From NCBI GenBank assembly GCA_021775325.1, contig JAJFID010000253.1, forward strand, positions 1 to 37,687: 37,687 bases of DNA, in the 5' to 3' direction. Source of the stretch: Rhodospirillales bacterium (lineage in GTDB: Bacteria; Pseudomonadota; Alphaproteobacteria; Rhodospirillales; Casp-alpha2). Positions 27,462 through 37,687 of this stretch are shown in pieces. The stretch's first letter is position 1, and every line of letters starts with the position of its first letter. The position numbers were made by a program, and so were the translations under genes. The notes below the pieces were generated by a model that was not told where the DNA came from, ran no database searches, and was given only the letters and a program-made list of their open reading frames with translations.

Positions 27462-28031
27462 ATGAAAAGAAAATACTCACTGGATGACATGCAGAGCAAG
27501 CCGGAACTGGATCGCCGCGCATGTGAATGGCCCGGATGTGACGGGACCGGCGAACATCGTGCGCCCAAATCACGTGAGGAACTGAACACCTACCTGTGGT
27601 TCTGTATTGAACATATTCGGCAATACAACAAAACCTGGAATTATTATGACGGCATGAATGATTCGGAAGTGGAGCAGGACAAACGCCACGACACAGTGTG
27701 GAACCGGCCGTCATGGCAATTGGGAACCAATGCTGGGGCATTCGGATTTGGCGCGGGCGCAGACCCGTTTGATCTGTTTGGCGAAAACGGCGGCAACGGC
27801 TCAGATAATGGCGGGGTCAATGCCCGGCCGCCCGTCAGCAAAGAGGAAGAACGGGCATATCTGACACTGGGTCTGGAGTATCCGGTTACCGCAGTTGATA
27901 TCAAGACCCGCTACAAGGCGCTGGTCAAAGAACACCATCCTGATGCCAACAAAGGGGCCAAGGCCTCTGAAGAACGCCTGAAGGACATTAATCAGGCGTA
28001 CCATTTGCTGCGGGATTCTATGACCGCTTGA
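27462..28031 (+). CDS. J-domain (DnaJ-like) protein, start refined
   Basis: C-terminal J domain YKALVKEHHPDANKGAKASEERLKDINQAYHLLRD with HPD; N-terminal Cys-containing region. Confidence 0.9.
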   Translation: MKRKYSLDDMQSKPELDRRACEWPGCDGTGEHRAPKSREELNTYLWFCIEHIRQYNKTWNYYDGMNDSEVEQDKRHDTVWNRPSWQLGTNAGAFGFGAGADPFDLFGENGGNGSDNGGVNARPPVSKEEERAYLTLGLEYPVTAVDIKTRYKALVKEHHPDANKGAKASEERLKDINQAYHLLRDSMTA

Positions 28032-28054
28032 TTGTACGAGGCCCTATTGGGGCG

Positions 28055-28666
28055 TTAGCCCCGCAATCCCGCAACAATCGTTGATACGGACCGTTTTATC
28101 CGGGCCTCTACCCAGGCCCACGGGTGTTCCCGGGCGATTTGTTGGTGAAACACAGCCATACTGATATCCGATAGCAGGTCTACAGTCGCAGAAACGTCGA
28201 TATTTGTTGAGATATCACCCCGGCTCTGCAGTACGCCCAGTAGCTGCGCAACAGGCTCGTCAAACACCCGGTTGTTCAGTTTGTCCAGGGCTGGCTGATA
28301 CTCGCCCGCGGCCCGAATGCCCGTCGCCACGACCTCACGCCAGAGCGAATTGTCCAGATAGTCAAATCCGTTCTGGAGCTCAGCCAGAATCATGGCGCTG
28401 ATCGCATCAGCGGCATCACTTGGTGGGTTGCTGATAATCGCGTTCTTGTCGGTTTCGATTACTGCCCTGTCGGCTTCATAAATGGCGACAATCAGATCCG
28501 CCTTGGCCGGATAATACGCATACACGGTCGGCACAGATACGCCAGCTTTACGGGCGATATCGTCCATGGCTGTTGCCGCGTAACCACGTTCAGCAAACAA
28601 CGTCGCTGCTGCCTTGAAAATAGCGCTGCGACGCTCCGCTTTCTGACGCTCACGTAGTGTACTCAT
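28055..28666 (-). CDS. TetR/AcrR-family transcriptional regulator
   Basis: 203 aa; AIFKAAATLFAERGYAATAMDDIARKAGVSVPTVYAYYPAKADLI. Confidence 0.95.
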   Translation of the reverse strand: MSTLRERQKAERRSAIFKAAATLFAERGYAATAMDDIARKAGVSVPTVYAYYPAKADLIVAIYEADRAVIETDKNAIISNPPSDAADAISAMILAELQNGFDYLDNSLWREVVATGIRAAGEYQPALDKLNNRVFDEPVAQLLGVLQSRGDISTNIDVSATVDLLSDISMAVFHQQIAREHPWAWVEARIKRSVSTIVAGLRG

Positions 28667-28680
28667 GCTATAAACTTACA

Positions 28681-28724
28681 TGATTAAAAAACTTTAATCA
28701 CTAAAATAATTTTGCTATAGTGAT
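28681..28724. promoter_or_regulatory. Overlapping inverted repeats, candidate TetR operator(s) with a possible -10
   Basis: TGATTAAA-AAAC-TTTAATCA (28681-28700); AATCACTA (28696-28703)/TAGTGATT (28718-28725); TATAGT at 28716-28721. Confidence 0.6.
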
Positions 28725-28759
28725 TTTATCAAAGCGGTGGGCACAGGCAGGAGGCAGCT

Positions 28760-30796
28760 ATGGCGAGAGACCCCAGACACGATATCCTTTTCGAGCCTGT
28801 CAAAATTGGCCCTGTTACAGCCAAGAACCGTTTTTATCAGGTGCCGCACTGTACCGGCATGGGGTACGCCATGCCCGAAACCGTTGCGGCCATGCGCGAA
28901 ACCAAGGCCCAGGGTGGGTGGGCTGTCATCAATACAGAATACTGTTCCATTCATCCATCCAGTGACGATGGACCGTTTGCCTTCTGCACACTATGGGACA
29001 ATGACGACATACGGAACATGGCGCACATGAGTGAGACCGTGCACCGCCATGATTCGCTTGCGGGCGTAGAGTTATGGCACGGCGGCATGCATTCCAATAA
29101 CCGAACCACGCGCATGTCCCCTATTTCCGTATCGGGAGAACCCCTGATCCACATGGGGCCCATTCAGTCCCGGGCTATGGACAAGACCGACATCCGTAAC
29201 CTGGTCCGCTGGCAGGCCGATGCGGCCAGACGGGCCCGTGAAGCCGACTTCGATGTGGTTTACGTTTACGTGGGCCACGACTACCTGCCCTTCCAGTTCC
29301 TGTCACCGCGTCACAATCAACGTACGGACGAGTACGGCGGTTCACTGGAAAACCGTACACGCCTGATCCGGGAGATGATTGACGCCACGCGCGATGCTGT
29401 CGGCGACAGGTGCGCCGTTGCGATCCGGTTTGCCGTGGACGAGTTAATGGGACCCCAGGGCATCACCTGTGACGAGGAGGGCCGGGCCGTTATCGAACTT
29501 CTGGCCGAGTTACCCGATCTGTGGGATGTCAATGTAAGCGGCGTTGCCAACGATTCCAAAAGTGCCCGGTTCTCTGATGAAGGGTTTCAGGAAGAATACA
29601 TATCATTCGTGAAATCCGTCACCACCAAGCCCGTCGTCGGTGTCGGTCGGTACACCAGTCCTGACCGCATGGCCGGTCTGGTCAAAAAAGGCATTCTGGA
29701 TTTCATCGGAGCCGCCCGCCCATCCATAGCAGACCCATTCCTGCCCCGAAAGATTGAAGAAGGGCGCAGCGATGAAATCCGCGAATGCATCGGCTGTAAT
29801 ATCTGCCGGTCCGGCAACAACGAAGGTACTCCAATTCGCTGCACCCAGAACCCTACCATGGGTGAAGAATGGCGTCGCGGATGGCATCCGGAAAACATCG
29901 ATCCAAAAGGTTCTGATGATCAAATTCTGGTAATCGGTGGCGGTCCTGCTGGCCTTGAGTGTGCTCGTGCGGCTGGCCAGCGTGGATACAACGTTGTCCT
30001 CGCCGAAGCATCAACTGAACTGGGCGGTCGTATCAACAGGGATTGCCGCCTGCCCGGACTATCCACCTGGGCGCGGGTGCGCGACTGGCGCACGGGACGT
30101 CTCAATCAGATGCCCAATGTGGACATTTATCTGGATAGCGCGCTCACCGCAGACGACGTGGCAGAATTCGATGCACAGCAGGTGATTGTCGCGACCGGTG
30201 CCCGCTGGCGACGCGATGGCCTTGGTGCATACACCCCGTTTGGTATTGAGAACATTGAACAGGCCTGCGCTGTAACGCCTGATGATATCCTCATAGACGG
30301 GATAGAACCGGAGGGGCCGGTTCTGATTTACGATGATGATCACTATTACATGGGCGGGGCGCTGGCGGAGCAGCTACGGGCAACCGGCCTCGACGTCACG
30401 CTGGTCACACCGGCCTCCTACGCGTCGGCATGGACCGAGATGACCGAAGAGTTGGAATTTGTTCAGGCCCGCCTGCTGGGGCTCGGCGTTACACTGATCA
30501 CACAGCACTACATGGCTGGTGTTAAGGATGGGACGGCCCGTCTGGCGTGCCGGTTCACACATCGTGAAACCCTACAGGGTTTCGGTAGTCTGATACTGGT
30601 GACAGCGCGCACCCCGGTCGACAGCCTTTATTCAGAACTCGTGGGCCGTGGCATGGGCAACGTACACCGGATCGGGGACTGCGAAACGCCTGGCTCACTA
30701 GTGCACGCCATCCACGCCGGTCATCGTCTGGCCCGTGAACTGGATAACGCACCTGATCCTGACATGCCATTCCGCCGCGAACGGGTCGTCGTCTGA
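28760..30796 (+). CDS. TMADH/DMADH-like NADH:flavin oxidoreductase with Fe-S and FAD/NAD domains
   Basis: 678 aa; MARDPRHDILFEPVKIGPVTAKNRFYQVPHC, RTDEYGGSLENR, CIGCNICRSGNNEGTPIRC (C-x2-C-x2-C-x11-C), ILVIGGGPAGLECARAA. Confidence 0.93.
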   Translation: MARDPRHDILFEPVKIGPVTAKNRFYQVPHCTGMGYAMPETVAAMRETKAQGGWAVINTEYCSIHPSSDDGPFAFCTLWDNDDIRNMAHMSETVHRHDSLAGVELWHGGMHSNNRTTRMSPISVSGEPLIHMGPIQSRAMDKTDIRNLVRWQADAARRAREADFDVVYVYVGHDYLPFQFLSPRHNQRTDEYGGSLENRTRLIREMIDATRDAVGDRCAVAIRFAVDELMGPQGITCDEEGRAVIELLAELPDLWDVNVSGVANDSKSARFSDEGFQEEYISFVKSVTTKPVVGVGRYTSPDRMAGLVKKGILDFIGAARPSIADPFLPRKIEEGRSDEIRECIGCNICRSGNNEGTPIRCTQNPTMGEEWRRGWHPENIDPKGSDDQILVIGGGPAGLECARAAGQRGYNVVLAEASTELGGRINRDCRLPGLSTWARVRDWRTGRLNQMPNVDIYLDSALTADDVAEFDAQQVIVATGARWRRDGLGAYTPFGIENIEQACAVTPDDILIDGIEPEGPVLIYDDDHYYMGGALAEQLRATGLDVTLVTPASYASAWTEMTEELEFVQARLLGLGVTLITQHYMAGVKDGTARLACRFTHRETLQGFGSLILVTARTPVDSLYSELVGRGMGNVHRIGDCETPGSLVHAIHAGHRLARELDNAPDPDMPFRRERVVV

Positions 30797-30835
30797 GGTA
30801 CACCATTTATCTGAACTCTCAACCGGAGAAACACC

Positions 30836-32392
30836 ATGAGCATCGAAACCAGTGCACGCCCGGCGCGTCAGCGTCGCCGAGGCGGTGGTGGCACCGCCAG
30901 AACAGTCGGTGCAATTCAACAACGACCGTGGGCGGAGGTATCGAACCCCTACGCGCCGACGGAAATCATCAATGCTGAACGAATTGAGGATATTCACACG
31001 GCGTCGTTGCGCGTGCTTAGTGAACTGGGAGTCGAAGTCCTGCATGCGCCCCTGCGTCAGACCCTGTCAAAAGCCGGCGCCGAAGTCGACGGTGATCGCG
31101 TGCGGCTTGACCCAGCCATGGTTGAGGAGAAAGTCGAACTTGCACCCGATTCTGTCACCTTGCACGCCAGAAATCCGGCCCGTAATGTTACGCTGAAAGA
31201 GGGCAATATCGCGTTCTGCTCCACGGGTGGCCCCGCGTTTTCCACCGATCTGGACCGTGGCAGACGTGCCGCAACGTTTGAGGACATGAAGGACTTCACC
31301 CGTCTTGTACACATGTTGAATGTGATCCATCTGGAAGGCGGCGGGGCTGTGGAACCAACGGACCTGCCTGTGGAAAACCGTCATCTCGATATGTACCGGG
31401 CGTTTATTACACTGACGGACAAAGTCTGGACGGGATACGGCCTGGGCACGCAACGCGCCAATGACGCCATTGATCTGGCGGCAATAGTACTGGGCACTGA
31501 CCGGGGTGGATTGGCGGAACGACCAGGAGCGCTGACGGTCATCAATTCGAACTCGCCCTTGCGGGTGGATGGCCCCATGTCCGAAGGTCTGACCGCCTTC
31601 GCGCTTGCGGCCCAGCCCTTTGCCGCCACCCCATTCACCCTCTCGGGTGCCATGGCACCGGCGACCATCGGCGGTGCACTGGTGCAGCAAAACGCGGAAG
31701 CCCTGGCCATGATAACCATGGCCCAATGTGTCCGGGCAGGCGCGCCTGTCATTTATGGCGGTTTTACCAGCAATGTAGATATGAAAACCGGCGCACCGGC
31801 GTTTGGTACGCCTGAGTACTCGCAGGCCGTTCTGATCGGCTGCCAGCTCGCCCGCCGGTACGGCGTGCCCTACCGCAGCAGTAACGTGACCTCGTGCAAT
31901 ACGGTCGATGCGCAGGCCGCCTATGAAAGCGCCATGTCCCTGTGGCCAGCCTGTATGGGTCAGGCCAATATTATCAAACATGCTGCGGGTTGGCTGGAGG
32001 GCGGTCTCACGGCCAGCTTCGAGAAATTCATCCTGGATGCCGAGATGTTACAGATGATGTCGGCATTCATGGTACCGCCGGCCATCGATGAAGACGCTTT
32101 TGGATTCGAGGCCATGGCGGAAGTTGGTCCCGGCGGTCATTTTTTCGGCACCAGCCACACCCTGGAACGGTATGAGAATGCGTTCTACCAGCCGATTCTG
32201 TCTGACTGGCGTAATTTCGAGACTTGGCAGGAGTCCGACAGCCCCACTGCCGCCCAACACGCCAATCGCATCTGGAAGCAGTTGTTATCCGAATACGAAG
32301 AGCCCGCTATTGACCCGGCCGTTCTGGAAGAAGTGGATGCATTCATCGCGCGCCGCAAGGAGGAACTTAAAGTAACAGGTGTAGACTCATGA
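30836..32392 (+). CDS. MttB-family (trimethylamine methyltransferase superfamily) protein, non-pyrrolysine type
   Basis: 518 aa uninterrupted; NPYAPTEIINAERIEDIHTASLRVLSELGVEVL, CSTGGPAFSTDLDRGRRAATFEDMKDFTRL, GGHFFGTSHTLERYENAFYQPILSDWRNFETW. Confidence 0.92.
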   Translation: MSIETSARPARQRRRGGGGTARTVGAIQQRPWAEVSNPYAPTEIINAERIEDIHTASLRVLSELGVEVLHAPLRQTLSKAGAEVDGDRVRLDPAMVEEKVELAPDSVTLHARNPARNVTLKEGNIAFCSTGGPAFSTDLDRGRRAATFEDMKDFTRLVHMLNVIHLEGGGAVEPTDLPVENRHLDMYRAFITLTDKVWTGYGLGTQRANDAIDLAAIVLGTDRGGLAERPGALTVINSNSPLRVDGPMSEGLTAFALAAQPFAATPFTLSGAMAPATIGGALVQQNAEALAMITMAQCVRAGAPVIYGGFTSNVDMKTGAPAFGTPEYSQAVLIGCQLARRYGVPYRSSNVTSCNTVDAQAAYESAMSLWPACMGQANIIKHAAGWLEGGLTASFEKFILDAEMLQMMSAFMVPPAIDEDAFGFEAMAEVGPGGHFFGTSHTLERYENAFYQPILSDWRNFETWQESDSPTAAQHANRIWKQLLSEYEEPAIDPAVLEEVDAFIARRKEELKVTGVDS

Positions 32393-32418
32393 ACCAGCGA
32401 GGTTAGTCAAAACCGCGC

Positions 32419-32790
32419 CTATTTTTGTGTCCAGCTTCCGTTCTCGCTGAGGAACCACGTACCTGGCGCGGCCTTGCCCCTGATTTCACCGGCATAAACG
32501 CGCCCGACCAGATCCACCGATGTGCCCTGTTCCGTAGCCCTGCTGGTATAGAGCGCCTGTCGTTTGGCATTGATGGCCGCAATGACACTCGCCACGCTGC
32601 TGCCACCATCGCGCATGTGGACAAATCCATCATATCCCTCACCTACAGCACCAGATGCACGAAGGTCCTGAAGGCTTTGGGCCATGGCGGGTCCCGATGG
32701 CAGGACACCGGCAGAAACAGCAATCAGGGAAAAGAACGCCGCGAACAGGAAGGCCCGATACTTCCTATGAATTGATTGTGCTCGTGTCAT
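32419..32790 (-). CDS. YdbL-family (DUF1318) periplasmic protein
   Basis: 123 aa; signal peptide; LQDLRASGAVGEGYDGFVHMRDGGSS...INAKRQALYTSRATEQGTSVDLVGRVYAGEI. Confidence 0.9.
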   Translation of the reverse strand: MTRAQSIHRKYRAFLFAAFFSLIAVSAGVLPSGPAMAQSLQDLRASGAVGEGYDGFVHMRDGGSSVASVIAAINAKRQALYTSRATEQGTSVDLVGRVYAGEIRGKAAPGTWFLSENGSWTQK

Positions 32791-32993
32791 CAGAATATCT
32801 CCGGATTTTCGTCTATATCGTCCTTGGCCTTTTCCTCCAGCAGAAGGCGTACTTCGGCATCAAGCTTGATGTTCAGGTTTATGGTTATGGGTTCCTGCGG
32901 CGCTTCGACTTTAACGGTGGGCGTGCACGCCACCACAAACAGGGCCAGCAAGGCAATCGTGGGAACGACGGGTGATGCAGTAACCTGTTTCAA
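32790..32993 (-). CDS. YnbE-family lipoprotein, likely TTG start (ORF track start at 33080)
   Basis: Lipobox VVAC; CTPTVKVEAPQEPITINLNIKLDAEVRLLLEEK; GGGGAG Shine-Dalgarno just upstream of TTG. Confidence 0.8.
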   Translation of the reverse strand: MKQVTASPVVPTIALLALFVVACTPTVKVEAPQEPITINLNIKLDAEVRLLLEEKAKDDIDENPEIF

Positions 32994-33076
32994 CGAATTT
33001 TCTCCCCACAAACGGACAATGAACAATGATAGAGCGTACCAGTGTGGCAACATTATGTCAGCTTTCCACCCTCGTA

Positions 33077-35608
33077 TCAAAACACACCCCGAACGGCAGC
33101 CTTCAAAGCGTGATCTGACAATCGGTACGCTTCAATCAGCGGCCCCAGAATCTTGTCCAGATCAGCCGACAGGTTGATATCCAGAATAATGGGGTGGCCG
33201 TCCTTGACCGCCGGATTGGCCCCTTCCATGTAAAGCCGGACTTCAGCATCGGTATTCAGTTTTTTATTCAGATAGAGCGCCAGTTTTTCATAATGAAAGT
33301 CCTCCAGAACCTGAATCAGCAATTCCGCCTGCGACCCACCGCGCGACAATGTTTCCACCGCCGCAGCAGAGTAAATTTTCAACACACCCGGTCCGGCCGC
33401 TTCGAGCACACCATTATTAATCCAGATATTGTCGACACCTACGTCCAGTGGAATGGCACCGTTCAGAATGCCATCGCCGGTGACGCCTTCCATACCAAGG
33501 GTGCCCAAGACCTGCGCCAGATCAATGCCCCTGACGCCCAGAGTGACAGAATTGACCGCTTCCGTTCTGTCTATCACGGCATCATTGACGACCAGCCGCC
33601 CCCCGGACACGCCAACGGAAGCATGGTGAACGAGCAGCACGTCCGGCACAACGCTGCCCTCGTGATGCAGCAACCGAAACTGAAGGACAGGTGTATGGAA
33701 CGGTACAACACTGTCAATTCGATCAAGGGTGATTTCCTGTACCGTGTTCATGTGCAGCGGATAAAGTTGGTCGAAATGAATATGCGCGTTCATGCCATGC
33801 GCTACGTTTGTGTCGAACGAGAAATCAAACCCATCCAAATTTATGTCTGCAACACCATCAAAACCTTCAGGTGACCAACTGATGTCTGATGTACTGTTTA
33901 GGTGGCCCTGCACATTTGTCAGCAAATCAAACAGCGATGTGATATACGCAGGCGATGCACCACCCGCAGAAAAGGTCTGCGGTGTGAACTGCACCGCCGC
34001 GCCGCCGCTGCCATCCCGCAAACTATGTCGGCCCTGAATATTCAGGTCGCTGCCGTCACTGGCACGCGTGACCATGGTCAGGTTCACACCGAAGTCGAGC
34101 CCCGCGTCGTCACCGGCAAAGTCGGCCATTACCGTGAACGGCTCGATGACGCGCTTGTCTGAGCCTTCCGTGACGGAGAGAACCGCAAGGTTTGCCTTCA
34201 GGGTCTTCGCCATTGGTTCCAGCACTGCCCTGACACTGGTATCTCTCAAATCAAACGTGAAGCCGCCCATCTGCAGGCTGGAATTTTCCGCGCGTACCTC
34301 AACGTCGATGGGGTCTCCGACGATGCTCTCCGACATGTGCATCCGACCCGATGGTATGCGGAATTCCATAACACCCTGATGAACAGCGAGATCGTTCACG
34401 TTGGCTGTAGCCCCCGCTATGAATTCGCCATCATTCCAGGCCAGGCGCCCTTTTGTGGCGATTTGGCCTGCCACATGTGCGGGTACCGCCAGTAAGGAAC
34501 TCAGATCATCGGGTTGCAGTCCGTCCGCCGAAAACACAACAGGTGCAATGTCCGTATCCATCTGACCAGACCTGCTTTCAAACTCATGCGTAACAGAAAC
34601 CTGGGCCTGAACAGCACCTAAGCCGTACTCCACATGATAGGTTCCGTTCACAGCATCAGGATTAGCGGCCCCACGGCCAGAAACAATGACTGGGCTCGAC
34701 AAGATCCGCTCCGGTGACTGATCAGTAATCGTCATTCCAGCGAGTACATAGTCGACGTTTTCTGTCTCAGGCATCCACGAAACAAAAACATCTGTATTGG
34801 ACACCAGAAAAGCGCGGCCATCGCCCGCGACCGATACCTCTGCATCCGCGATTTGGATATCAGTCCGTCCGTTTGTTTGCTGATCGACGAGGGCATAAAG
34901 CGACAGGTTGCCGGCCGCGGTTTTATTGCCCTGCCACTCAAAGTTAACATCGGACATCGCAATGGTTGCAGAATTCAGCCCCGCTGCGAGGTCGGCCTGA
35001 ACCTTGCCGCGTGCAACAGACTGGCGATCATCGCTGGCTCCCAATGCCGCCTCAAACACAACACTGATCCGGCCCGACAGGTCCGGCTGAATGCTGGCGT
35101 CTCCATGAACCTTTGCGGAAGTACCATCCGCAACGCTATGAACCACGAAATCAGATAATGTTATCTGTGGCATCGTGAAACTACCGGGTGCAGAGCTGTC
35201 AGTCGAATTCAACCGTCCGATAATCAGGCCTACAGTGCCGCTCTGCCGTGTTGATACATCCACAACCAATCCACCGACAATGACGTGGTGTATTCCACCG
35301 TTTAACAGTTCCGAAAATGTGTAATCGACATCAACACGCCTGGCCTGCAGGTCGGTTCCAAGCCTGATATCAGTCAAGATAATCCGATCAACAGTAAACT
35401 CGTCGATGTAGAGTGACGGTGATTCAACGCCCTGGCCGCGCAGCACCTGAATGATCACCGTTTTCAGCAGGAAATCGCGATTGAGCCAGGCACCGCCGGA
35501 CACCAGGCACACCACCAGGATGACACCAGCAGCCAACCATGCCATTCCACGCCGTTTTCCACTGTTGCCGAGCGGATTACCGCTCATTCTGTTCTCATTG
35601 GTCGACAT
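33077..35608 (-). CDS. YdbH-family AsmA-like envelope protein
   Basis: 843 aa; N-terminal TM anchor, long beta-rich body; operonic with YnbE and YdbL homologs. Confidence 0.88.
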   Translation of the reverse strand: MSTNENRMSGNPLGNSGKRRGMAWLAAGVILVVCLVSGGAWLNRDFLLKTVIIQVLRGQGVESPSLYIDEFTVDRIILTDIRLGTDLQARRVDVDYTFSELLNGGIHHVIVGGLVVDVSTRQSGTVGLIIGRLNSTDSSAPGSFTMPQITLSDFVVHSVADGTSAKVHGDASIQPDLSGRISVVFEAALGASDDRQSVARGKVQADLAAGLNSATIAMSDVNFEWQGNKTAAGNLSLYALVDQQTNGRTDIQIADAEVSVAGDGRAFLVSNTDVFVSWMPETENVDYVLAGMTITDQSPERILSSPVIVSGRGAANPDAVNGTYHVEYGLGAVQAQVSVTHEFESRSGQMDTDIAPVVFSADGLQPDDLSSLLAVPAHVAGQIATKGRLAWNDGEFIAGATANVNDLAVHQGVMEFRIPSGRMHMSESIVGDPIDVEVRAENSSLQMGGFTFDLRDTSVRAVLEPMAKTLKANLAVLSVTEGSDKRVIEPFTVMADFAGDDAGLDFGVNLTMVTRASDGSDLNIQGRHSLRDGSGGAAVQFTPQTFSAGGASPAYITSLFDLLTNVQGHLNSTSDISWSPEGFDGVADINLDGFDFSFDTNVAHGMNAHIHFDQLYPLHMNTVQEITLDRIDSVVPFHTPVLQFRLLHHEGSVVPDVLLVHHASVGVSGGRLVVNDAVIDRTEAVNSVTLGVRGIDLAQVLGTLGMEGVTGDGILNGAIPLDVGVDNIWINNGVLEAAGPGVLKIYSAAAVETLSRGGSQAELLIQVLEDFHYEKLALYLNKKLNTDAEVRLYMEGANPAVKDGHPIILDINLSADLDKILGPLIEAYRLSDHALKAAVRGVF

Positions 35609-35745
35609 GCCATCAAACTACTGTATATCCGGTGACCTGTCCGCCCTTGAGGTTTGAGTACTGCCTGATCTACCATTCACATGTCAGTGACGACCGATGA
35701 CAGTCATTTCGTGATAAACCGGCATGGGTCCTGTTCCACCAAAAA

Positions 35746-35762
35746 ACTGTGCCAGACACAGT
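35746..35762. repeat. Short palindrome upstream of cobS
   Basis: ACTGTG-CCAGA-CACAGT. Confidence 0.4.
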
Positions 35763-35855
35763 CCACCCCCCTTGAGGCCTTGACCTTCGGCGCATTTAGC
35801 CCTACGCCATAGCTTCGCAAATTGACGTGTTTCACTTACTTTTGGTTTCCTGCCC

Positions 35856-36860
35856 ATGAATGTTCAGACCTCCATGGATGCCAGCCCGGCATTCCCGCTC
35901 GATAAACCGGACATAACGGTCTCTGTCAGAGATACGTTTGGCCTGGACAGTGACATGCAGGCACCTGCATTCAGCGTCGCCGACGAGCACGTGCCGGATA
36001 TGGATACCACCTATCGCTTTGATCACGATACAACCATGGCCATTCTGGCCGGGTTTGCCTACAATCGCCGGGTCATGATTCAAGGGTATCACGGCACAGG
36101 CAAATCCACCCATGTGGAGCAGGTTGCCGCACGCCTCAACTGGCCCTGTATTCGCATCAATCTGGACAGTCACATCAGCCGTATTGATCTGGTCGGCAAG
36201 GACGCCATTGTTCTGCGTGACGGCAAACAGGTTACGGAGTTCCGTGAAGGTATCCTGCCTTGGGCTATCCAGCACCCGACGGCGCTGGTATTTGACGAAT
36301 ATGATGCGGGCCGCCCCGATGTTATGTTCGTTATTCAGCGTATTCTGGAAGTCGAAGGCAAACTGACACTGCTTGACCAGAACCGGGTCATGCGTCCGCA
36401 TTCCCATTTCCGTCTGTTCTCGACCACCAACACAGTGGGACTGGGCGACACCACTGGCCTTTACCACGGCACGCAGCAGATCAACCAGGGTCAGATGGAC
36501 CGCTGGAATATTGTGACCACGTTGAACTATCTGGAGACAGAAGCAGAGGAAGCCATCGTTCTGTCCAAATTGCCCGCCTATAACACGGAGCAGGGCCAGG
36601 CTGATGTCCGTAACATGGTCGAACTGGCCAATCTGACCCGTGCGGGCTTTATGGCAGGTGATATATCCACTGTTATGTCACCGCGAACCGTCATTACCTG
36701 GGCTGAAAATGCCAGCATCTTCGCTGACCGGGCTTTTTCCTTCCGGGTTACGTTCCTCAACAAATGTGACGAGCACGAACGTCCGTTGATTGCCGAATAC
36801 TATCAGCGTTGTTTTGGCGAGGACCTGCCCGAATCCATTGGTAACATCGCAATCACCTGA
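35856..36860 (+). CDS. cobS: Aerobic cobaltochelatase subunit CobS
   Basis: 334 aa AAA+ ATPase; [68 protein letters not shown]. Confidence 0.97.
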
Positions 36861-36881
36861 ACAGCGAACTGAGGGGATGTG

Positions 36882-37687
36882 GTGAGCCAAACGGAACAAC
36901 CGCATGATCTGGTAAAACGGGTAACAACGGCCGCCCTGAAGGCACTGGCCGATAAACCCGGAACCGAAGTCAGCTTCTCGCAGGGCTCCGCCGGCATTGC
37001 TGGCAACACTGCCCATATGCCTGCACCACCGCATCAGATGACCGCTGACGGCGTTGCCCGCTATCGTGGCATGGCCGACGCGCTGGCAACCCGGATGCAT
37101 TACCACGATGAAAGCATTCATCGGCGCCGCCTGCCACCGAGCCCTGAAGCCCGCGCCGTATTCGAAGCGGTGGAGCAAGCCCGGTGTGAGAGCCTGGGTT
37201 CTCGGCGTCTCGAAGGCGTGGCAGCCAATCTCAACAACCTGACTGACGAACGCTGCAGAGCCAAAGGATATGCGGCGCTGCAAGAACGCAAGGAAGAAAT
37301 GTTGCCGGACGTGCTGGGTTTATTGATCCGCCAGCAGTTAGGCCATACAGAAATGCCGGAGGCCGCGCAAAATCTGTTTGGCCTGTGGCAGGACTGGCTT
37401 GATGAACGCGTCGGTGAACAAATCAATGATCTGGAAGGCTGCATGAACGATCAGGCCCAGTTTTCGGAAAAAATCATGAAGATGCTGCAGTCCCTGGATC
37501 TCATGGATGCTGCGGATGATCTGGATTCCGACGAGAGCAACCCGGACGATGAGGGCGACGACGAAGACGCCGGTAGCGATGACATGGATACGGAAAATGG
37601 CGAGATGGATGCTGAATCTGCCGCCGCCATGGAATCCGCCATGGGCGAAACCGATGATGACGCGGATGGCATGTCAGACGACGGTGA
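36882..37687 (+). CDS. cobT: Aerobic cobaltochelatase subunit CobT, truncated by the window edge, GTG start
   Basis: Translated by hand: (M)SQTEQPHDLVKRVTTAALKALADKPGTEVSF...; ends in a Asp/Glu-rich stretch; directly follows cobS; not in the supplied ORF track. Confidence 0.92.
   Translation, partial: MSQTEQPHDLVKRVTTAALKALADKPGTEVSFSQGSAGIAGNTAHMPAPPHQMTADGVARYRGMADALATRMHYHDESIHRRRLPPSPEARAVFEAVEQARCESLGSRRLEGVAANLNNLTDERCRAKGYAALQERKEEMLPDVLGLLIRQQLGHTEMPEAAQNLFGLWQDWLDERVGEQINDLEGCMNDQAQFSEKIMKMLQSLDLMDAADDLDSDESNPDDEGDDEDAGSDDMDTENGEMDAESAAAMESAMGETDDDADGMSDDG

Follow-up and report, generated by a model that had tools for sequence, protein, structure and literature searches.

Pyrrolysine-free MttB proteins with known substrates act on quaternary amines, and these have so far been acidic (glycine betaine, proline betaine, carnitine, gamma-butyrobetaine, and phosphocholine). 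Corrinoid-dependent demethylation of glycine betaine was demonstrated only recently in aerobic bacteria, whose numerous MttB paralogs mostly still lack an assigned substrate. In the MtgBCD system of Ruegeria pomeroyi, mtgC and mtgD mutants do not grow on glycine betaine, mtgC is needed for both glycine betaine use and methionine synthesis, and several pfam06253 paralogs have been proposed to serve other methylated compounds (Mausz 2025, PMC12478193). Pno, a flavoprotein of the trimethylamine dehydrogenase (TMADH) family, converts 6-hydroxypseudooxynicotine, releases methylamine, and passes electrons to an electron-transfer flavoprotein (ETF). In this study, we analyzed a stretch of 37,687 nucleotides from a Rhodospirillales bacterium (contig JAJFID010000253.1; hereafter the window), in which a TetR gene is divergent from a TMADH-like gene followed by an MttB-like gene. 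We read this module as a TetR-controlled two-gene catabolic operon for the stepwise N-demethylation of a quaternary amine, with a probability of roughly 0.58. The module contains the following features.

28055..28666, minus strand: TetR-family regulator, 203 amino acids (PF00440, E 8e-17), divergent from the operon
28692..28706, no strand assigned: putative TetR operator, near-palindrome CTTTAATCACTAAAA, between the TetR and TMADH genes
28760..30796, plus strand: TMADH-family flavoprotein dehydrogenase, 678 amino acids, with a flavin mononucleotide (FMN) domain, 4Fe-4S cysteines, and an ADP/FAD-like domain
30836..32392, plus strand: MttB-superfamily methyl donor:corrinoid methyltransferase without pyrrolysine, 518 amino acids (PF06253)

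All three open reading frames (ORFs) are open at these positions, in the order given by a first-pass annotation made from the sequence alone, and the gene identities and pairing that it proposed were borne out by domain and PDB matches and by conserved linkage. The TetR and TMADH-like genes are 93 bp apart in divergent orientation, the TMADH-like and MttB-like genes 39 bp apart on the same strand, and AGGAGG lies ahead of the TMADH-like start codon; the two enzyme genes probably form one transcription unit. The MttB-like protein matched PF06253 over its full length (E 3e-187; 622.9 bits, cut-off 25) and, in the PDB, 4yyc and MtgB (2qne and 9yce), with E values of about 1e-102 to 2e-102. Its ORF has no in-frame stop or amber codon, and a Val residue aligns with Pyl334 of MttB, which places it in the MttB superfamily without pyrrolysine. 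It lacks pyrrolysine, and its 283 bits fall short of the 525-bit cut-off of TIGR02369 (trimethylamine:corrinoid methyltransferase), so it does not belong to that family.

The TMADH-like protein comprises PF00724 and a pyridine-nucleotide-disulphide domain, and its full-length PDB matches were histamine dehydrogenase (E 1e-210) and TMADH (E 2e-172); in NCBIfam, its best flavoprotein families were all below cut-off, with no named equivalog. Aligned with TMADH of Methylophilus (1djn, whose numbering is used here), it retains C30, Y60, W105, Y169, H172, Y174, R222, D267, and the four cluster cysteines, so that the family signature of TMADH and histamine dehydrogenase (Cys30, the 4Fe-4S cysteines, and Tyr169-His172-Asp267) is complete. 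Val takes the place of Trp264, and the alignment has a gap at Trp355. In TMADH, Tyr60, Trp264, and Trp355 form the aromatic bowl holding the trimethylammonium group, and Cys30 is the covalent FMN site; Tyr60 is the only member of the bowl that is kept, and the enzyme does not qualify as TMADH proper. Judged by these residues, the amine-dehydrogenation machinery is intact and the trimethylammonium pocket altered. Trimethylamine, which the first-pass annotation had listed among the compounds to assay, is an improbable substrate because two of the three aromatics that bind it, Trp264 and Trp355, are absent; the TIGR02369 score of the MttB-like protein also disfavors it. Further TMADH-family paralogs with 53–61% identity are encoded elsewhere in the genome (contigs C415, C274, C58, C302, C332, and C277; two are cut by contig ends). 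These have other residues at 60 and 105 and mostly Trp264, and they are possibly amine dehydrogenases of different specificity.

By sequence score, the nearest solved structures are not TMADH but histamine dehydrogenases (3k30 and 6de6) and the related 6l6j, which have their domain order and a loop deletion at 355 in common with the window enzyme. Together with the chemistry of Pno, this is consistent with a common pathway other than two successive N-demethylations at the same nitrogen. In such a pathway, a C–N bond of a larger amine would be cleaved by the TMADH-like enzyme, and the MttB-like enzyme would demethylate a precursor or a released methylated amine. However, the window enzyme has the Y60, W105, and Y174 of TMADH, whereas positions 60 and 105 are Q and A in 3k30 and 6de6 and E and A in 6l6j, and we regard C–N cleavage as unlikely, although a serious contender.

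The pair was sought in related genomes. Among 65 related MttB-seeded loci with enough upstream sequence, 21 had a TMADH homolog directly upstream, on the same strand and no more than 500 bp away. Because these loci had been collected through MttB, we repeated the count with a TMADH seed in 385 genomes of the class plus three loci from the relatives search, which gave 62 homologs. An MttB gene was adjacent in 7 of the 15 homologs with Trp105 but in none of the other 47 (Fisher p 1.3e-5, a value that ignores relatedness), and all six homologs that combine W105 with Val or Ala at position 264, a combination shared by the window enzyme, were MttB-adjacent (L175 on the opposite strand). W105 alone proved too loose as a marker of linkage, as a Phe264 subgroup carries it without MttB. 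MttB-adjacent TMADHs form one clade (SH-aLRT 92) with the unlinked paralogs outside it, and their MttB partners are spread over several MttB clades. The pairwise distances of the two partner proteins are correlated (r 0.58), and none of 5000 permutations gave so high a value. The pair is conserved across Alpha- and some Gammaproteobacteria, and the homology of the genes and the recurrence of the pair are far above chance. Our literature search, which did not cover most subscription journals, found no account of a TMADH-MttB pair or of 6l6j.

The surroundings of the pair vary. In two of the closest relatives (L019 and L021), one alpha/beta-hydrolase ORF separates TMADH and MttB; in most of the rhizobial loci within L022-L037, about 9 kb separates the two genes, which still belong to one cluster that includes an Opp-type transporter and a CocE/NonD-type hydrolase; and the Mesorhizobium plasmid pB2-1-8 carries them side by side, next to a TetR gene and the genes for this transporter and this hydrolase. 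Because CocE/NonD-S15 or alpha/beta hydrolases and Opp-type transporters occur near several pairs, larger conjugated substrates are indicated there, a further point for C–N cleavage. No substrate can be named from the neighborhood, since these genes recur near some pairs (rhizobia, L048-type metagenome-assembled genomes) yet not in the window. Related MttB genes also have other oxidoreductases, likewise candidates for demethylation, as neighbors, DMGDH-like in 9 of 92 rows of the tree and elsewhere a Rieske protein or a DAO enzyme, which fit an order of methyltransferase first and oxidoreductase second. Four loci (L048, L056, L064, and L071) contain a conserved seven-gene cluster of S15/CocE hydrolase, TMADH, MttB, Rieske oxygenase, 2-hydroxyacid dehydrogenase, HpaB-type monooxygenase, and RidA, which looks like a longer catabolic pathway, perhaps for an aromatic or conjugated methylated amine. 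Tandem TMADH-family gene pairs without an adjacent MttB were seen in relatives from the same family of bacteria (G001:C42:43617-47771, G009:C10:32621-36743, and G020:C157:325-4536).

The TetR gene is conserved with the pair in the closest relatives. L019, L020, and L021 (72–75% identity in MttB) keep TetR, TMADH, and MttB, with the TetR (54–57% identity) in the same divergent position. The near-palindrome aligns in all four TetR-TMADH gaps, as CTTTAATCACTAAAA in the window and CTTTAGTCACTAAAG in L019 and L020; in L021 the right half is kept and the left half altered. The window site is the only match with 0–1 mismatches in the 3.96-Mb genome, and with as many as two mismatches allowed, chance would give 0.06 matches in the window. 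A wider regulon was rejected, as no other site matched at 0–1 mismatch and two-mismatch matches were fewer than in a reversed control. Because the genome has no other match with at most one mismatch, TetR is suggested to be a dedicated local regulator, and the near-palindrome is its putative binding site.

The module lies in a segment that interrupts a conserved gene order.

28032..35768, no strand assigned: segment of about 7.7 kb absent from relatives (TetR, TMADH, MttB, YdbL-like, and YdbH-like), at the dnaJ-cobS site
32419-32790, minus strand: DUF1318/YdbL-like gene, inside the segment
33077-35608, minus strand: YdbH-like gene, inside the segment

In a genome of the same genus (G001) and seven more distant relatives, a dnaJ-like gene is followed directly by cobS and cobT; the alignment to G001 ends at 28031 and picks up again at 35769, and no YdbH match was found in G001. 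Because the dnaJ-like gene and cobS are neighbors in these relatives, the segment is accessory in the lineage. Lateral gain would fit this pattern, with loss in the other lineages as the alternative. Vertical conservation of the pair in the genus is rejected, given the uninterrupted dnaJ-cobS site of G001 and its lack of a close ortholog. The check on conservation proposed by the first-pass annotation thus had a divided outcome: the pair recurs in more distant lineages, but the same-genus genome lacks the segment. The cobS and cobT genes just downstream (35856-37685; cobaltochelatase, B12 synthesis) are part of an ancestral dnaJ-cobS-cobT block and not of the module. As the segment looks laterally acquired and includes ydbL-like and ydbH-like genes that are probably unrelated to demethylation, the linkage could reflect passive co-transfer, with the MttB-like protein using a non-amine methyl donor or having another role; metaproteomics has reportedly implicated MttB-family proteins in dichloromethane fermentation (PMC9768040). 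However, members of several MttB clades, in many taxa, are paired with one and the same TMADH clade, and passive co-transfer would not preserve both the adjacency and the common near-palindrome; we hold this explanation to be very improbable.

The first-pass annotation saw neither an MttC-like corrinoid protein nor a RamA-like activase and left the methyl acceptor unnamed. This is correct within the window. For the genome (3.96 Mb in 427 contigs, 89% complete) it does not hold, and a search there rules out the absence of an acceptor. A single PF02607 corrinoid protein (C340, 10543-11259; PF02607 and PF02310, with the motif GDIHDIG) is followed by DUF1638, a PF13769 protein, an MTHFR C-terminal-domain protein, MTHFR, and a pterin-binding methyltransferase, and a RACo-type activase is encoded on C395. 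The genome thus encodes both a candidate cognate corrinoid protein and a reductive activase, and an aerobic MtgBCD-type set (mtgC with DUF1638, MTHFR, mtgD, and the activase). Systems of this type usually lack a classical MetH; here, at 89% completeness, the corrinoid protein itself was the only PF02607 match, and hence neither a second such protein nor a classical MetH was detected. Most of these genes are also found close to MttB genes in L046, L066, L068, L070, and L084. DUF1638 accompanies the corrinoid protein in such operons (e.g., L100, 11323-12283), and the PF13769 "virulence factor" family is found in five of six loci. The genome, of about 4 Mb, has at least 17 full-length MttB-family genes for the one corrinoid protein detected (contigs C68, C222, C47, C184, C185, C172, C348, C112, C29, C384, C72, C355, C323, C242, C287, C76, and C151), more than the "up to seven" given for marine bacteria (PMC12478193). 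Other MttB paralogs of the genome adjoin DMGDH-like or DAO genes and are better candidates for glycine betaine than the window protein.

In the operon that we propose, the MttB-like enzyme would remove one methyl group from a quaternary amine and load it onto the single MtgC-like corrinoid protein, which the RACo-type activase would keep active. Judging from characterized family members, the amine probably carries an acidic group. The MtgD-like enzyme would pass the methyl group to tetrahydrofolate, where MTHFR would oxidize it. The TMADH-like flavoprotein would then dehydrogenate the resulting tertiary amine to formaldehyde and a secondary amine, its electrons probably going to ETF, and TetR would repress the pair until a substrate or product binds. 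The first-pass annotation had put forward, besides such sequential demethylation, an alternative branch. In this reading, as we formulate it, both enzymes demethylate one substrate, the corrinoid route operating at low oxygen and the flavin route under strong respiration. Location in one probable transcription unit is compatible with this, but one common promoter cannot separate the two conditions. Dehydrogenation of amines by flavin enzymes requires a free lone pair. Because the known pyrrolysine-free MttB proteins take quaternary amines, a single substrate for both enzymes is unlikely, and we consider alternative branches improbable. Sequential demethylation is supported by the linkage, the near-palindrome, and the acceptor pathway in trans, with the substrate and the order of steps as its predicted parts.

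Several observations weigh against stepwise N-demethylation. The operon has neither a transporter nor a corrinoid gene, and the segment is absent from G001. With at least 17 MttB-family genes to a single corrinoid protein, MtgC is a presumed partner of the window enzyme. Eight of the 15 W105 homologs, mostly the Phe264 subgroup, have no nearby MttB. In a sub-branch of the MttB-linked TMADHs (the L067, L078, and L090 types and Mesorhizobium relatives), Ala30, Ala60, and Met172 are found, and the chemistry may differ there because the covalent FMN site, Y60, and H172 are lost. Finally, TMADH relatives such as Pno cleave C–N bonds of other amines and not N-methyl groups. The module itself is real, conserved, and biologically sensible, and is built of known enzyme families with largely predictable roles. 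One group of MttB paralogs becomes testable by virtue of a conserved partner, a pocket signature, and a local regulator for which there is a candidate operator: the TMADH-like partner predicts a tertiary amine intermediate, and TetR offers an inducer assay. More tentatively, the module may encode a conserved hybrid pathway in which TMADH-type dehydrogenation comes after corrinoid transmethylation, spread from one bacterium to another as a regulated cassette and dedicated to a quaternary ammonium compound outside the characterized MttB and TMADH substrates.

Compared with the Methylophilus TMADH, the window enzyme shares the catalytic and cluster residues listed above but has Val for Trp264, no Trp355, and an MttB partner. 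Its partner has the pyrrolysine-free MttB fold family in common with MtgB of Desulfitobacterium hafniense (2qne and 9yce), which it matches over its full length, but in the tree that MtgB is not part of the clade comprising the window protein and its relatives. The R. pomeroyi MtgBCD, or split methionine synthase, system (PMC12478193) shares with this genome a pfam06253 methyltransferase, a shared corrinoid protein, a pterin methyltransferase, and an MTHFR paralog. Both genomes encode several pfam06253 paralogs, and here no classical MetH was detected. Unlike in R. pomeroyi MtgBCD, the MttB of the window has a TMADH-type dehydrogenase as its partner and a TetR of its own.

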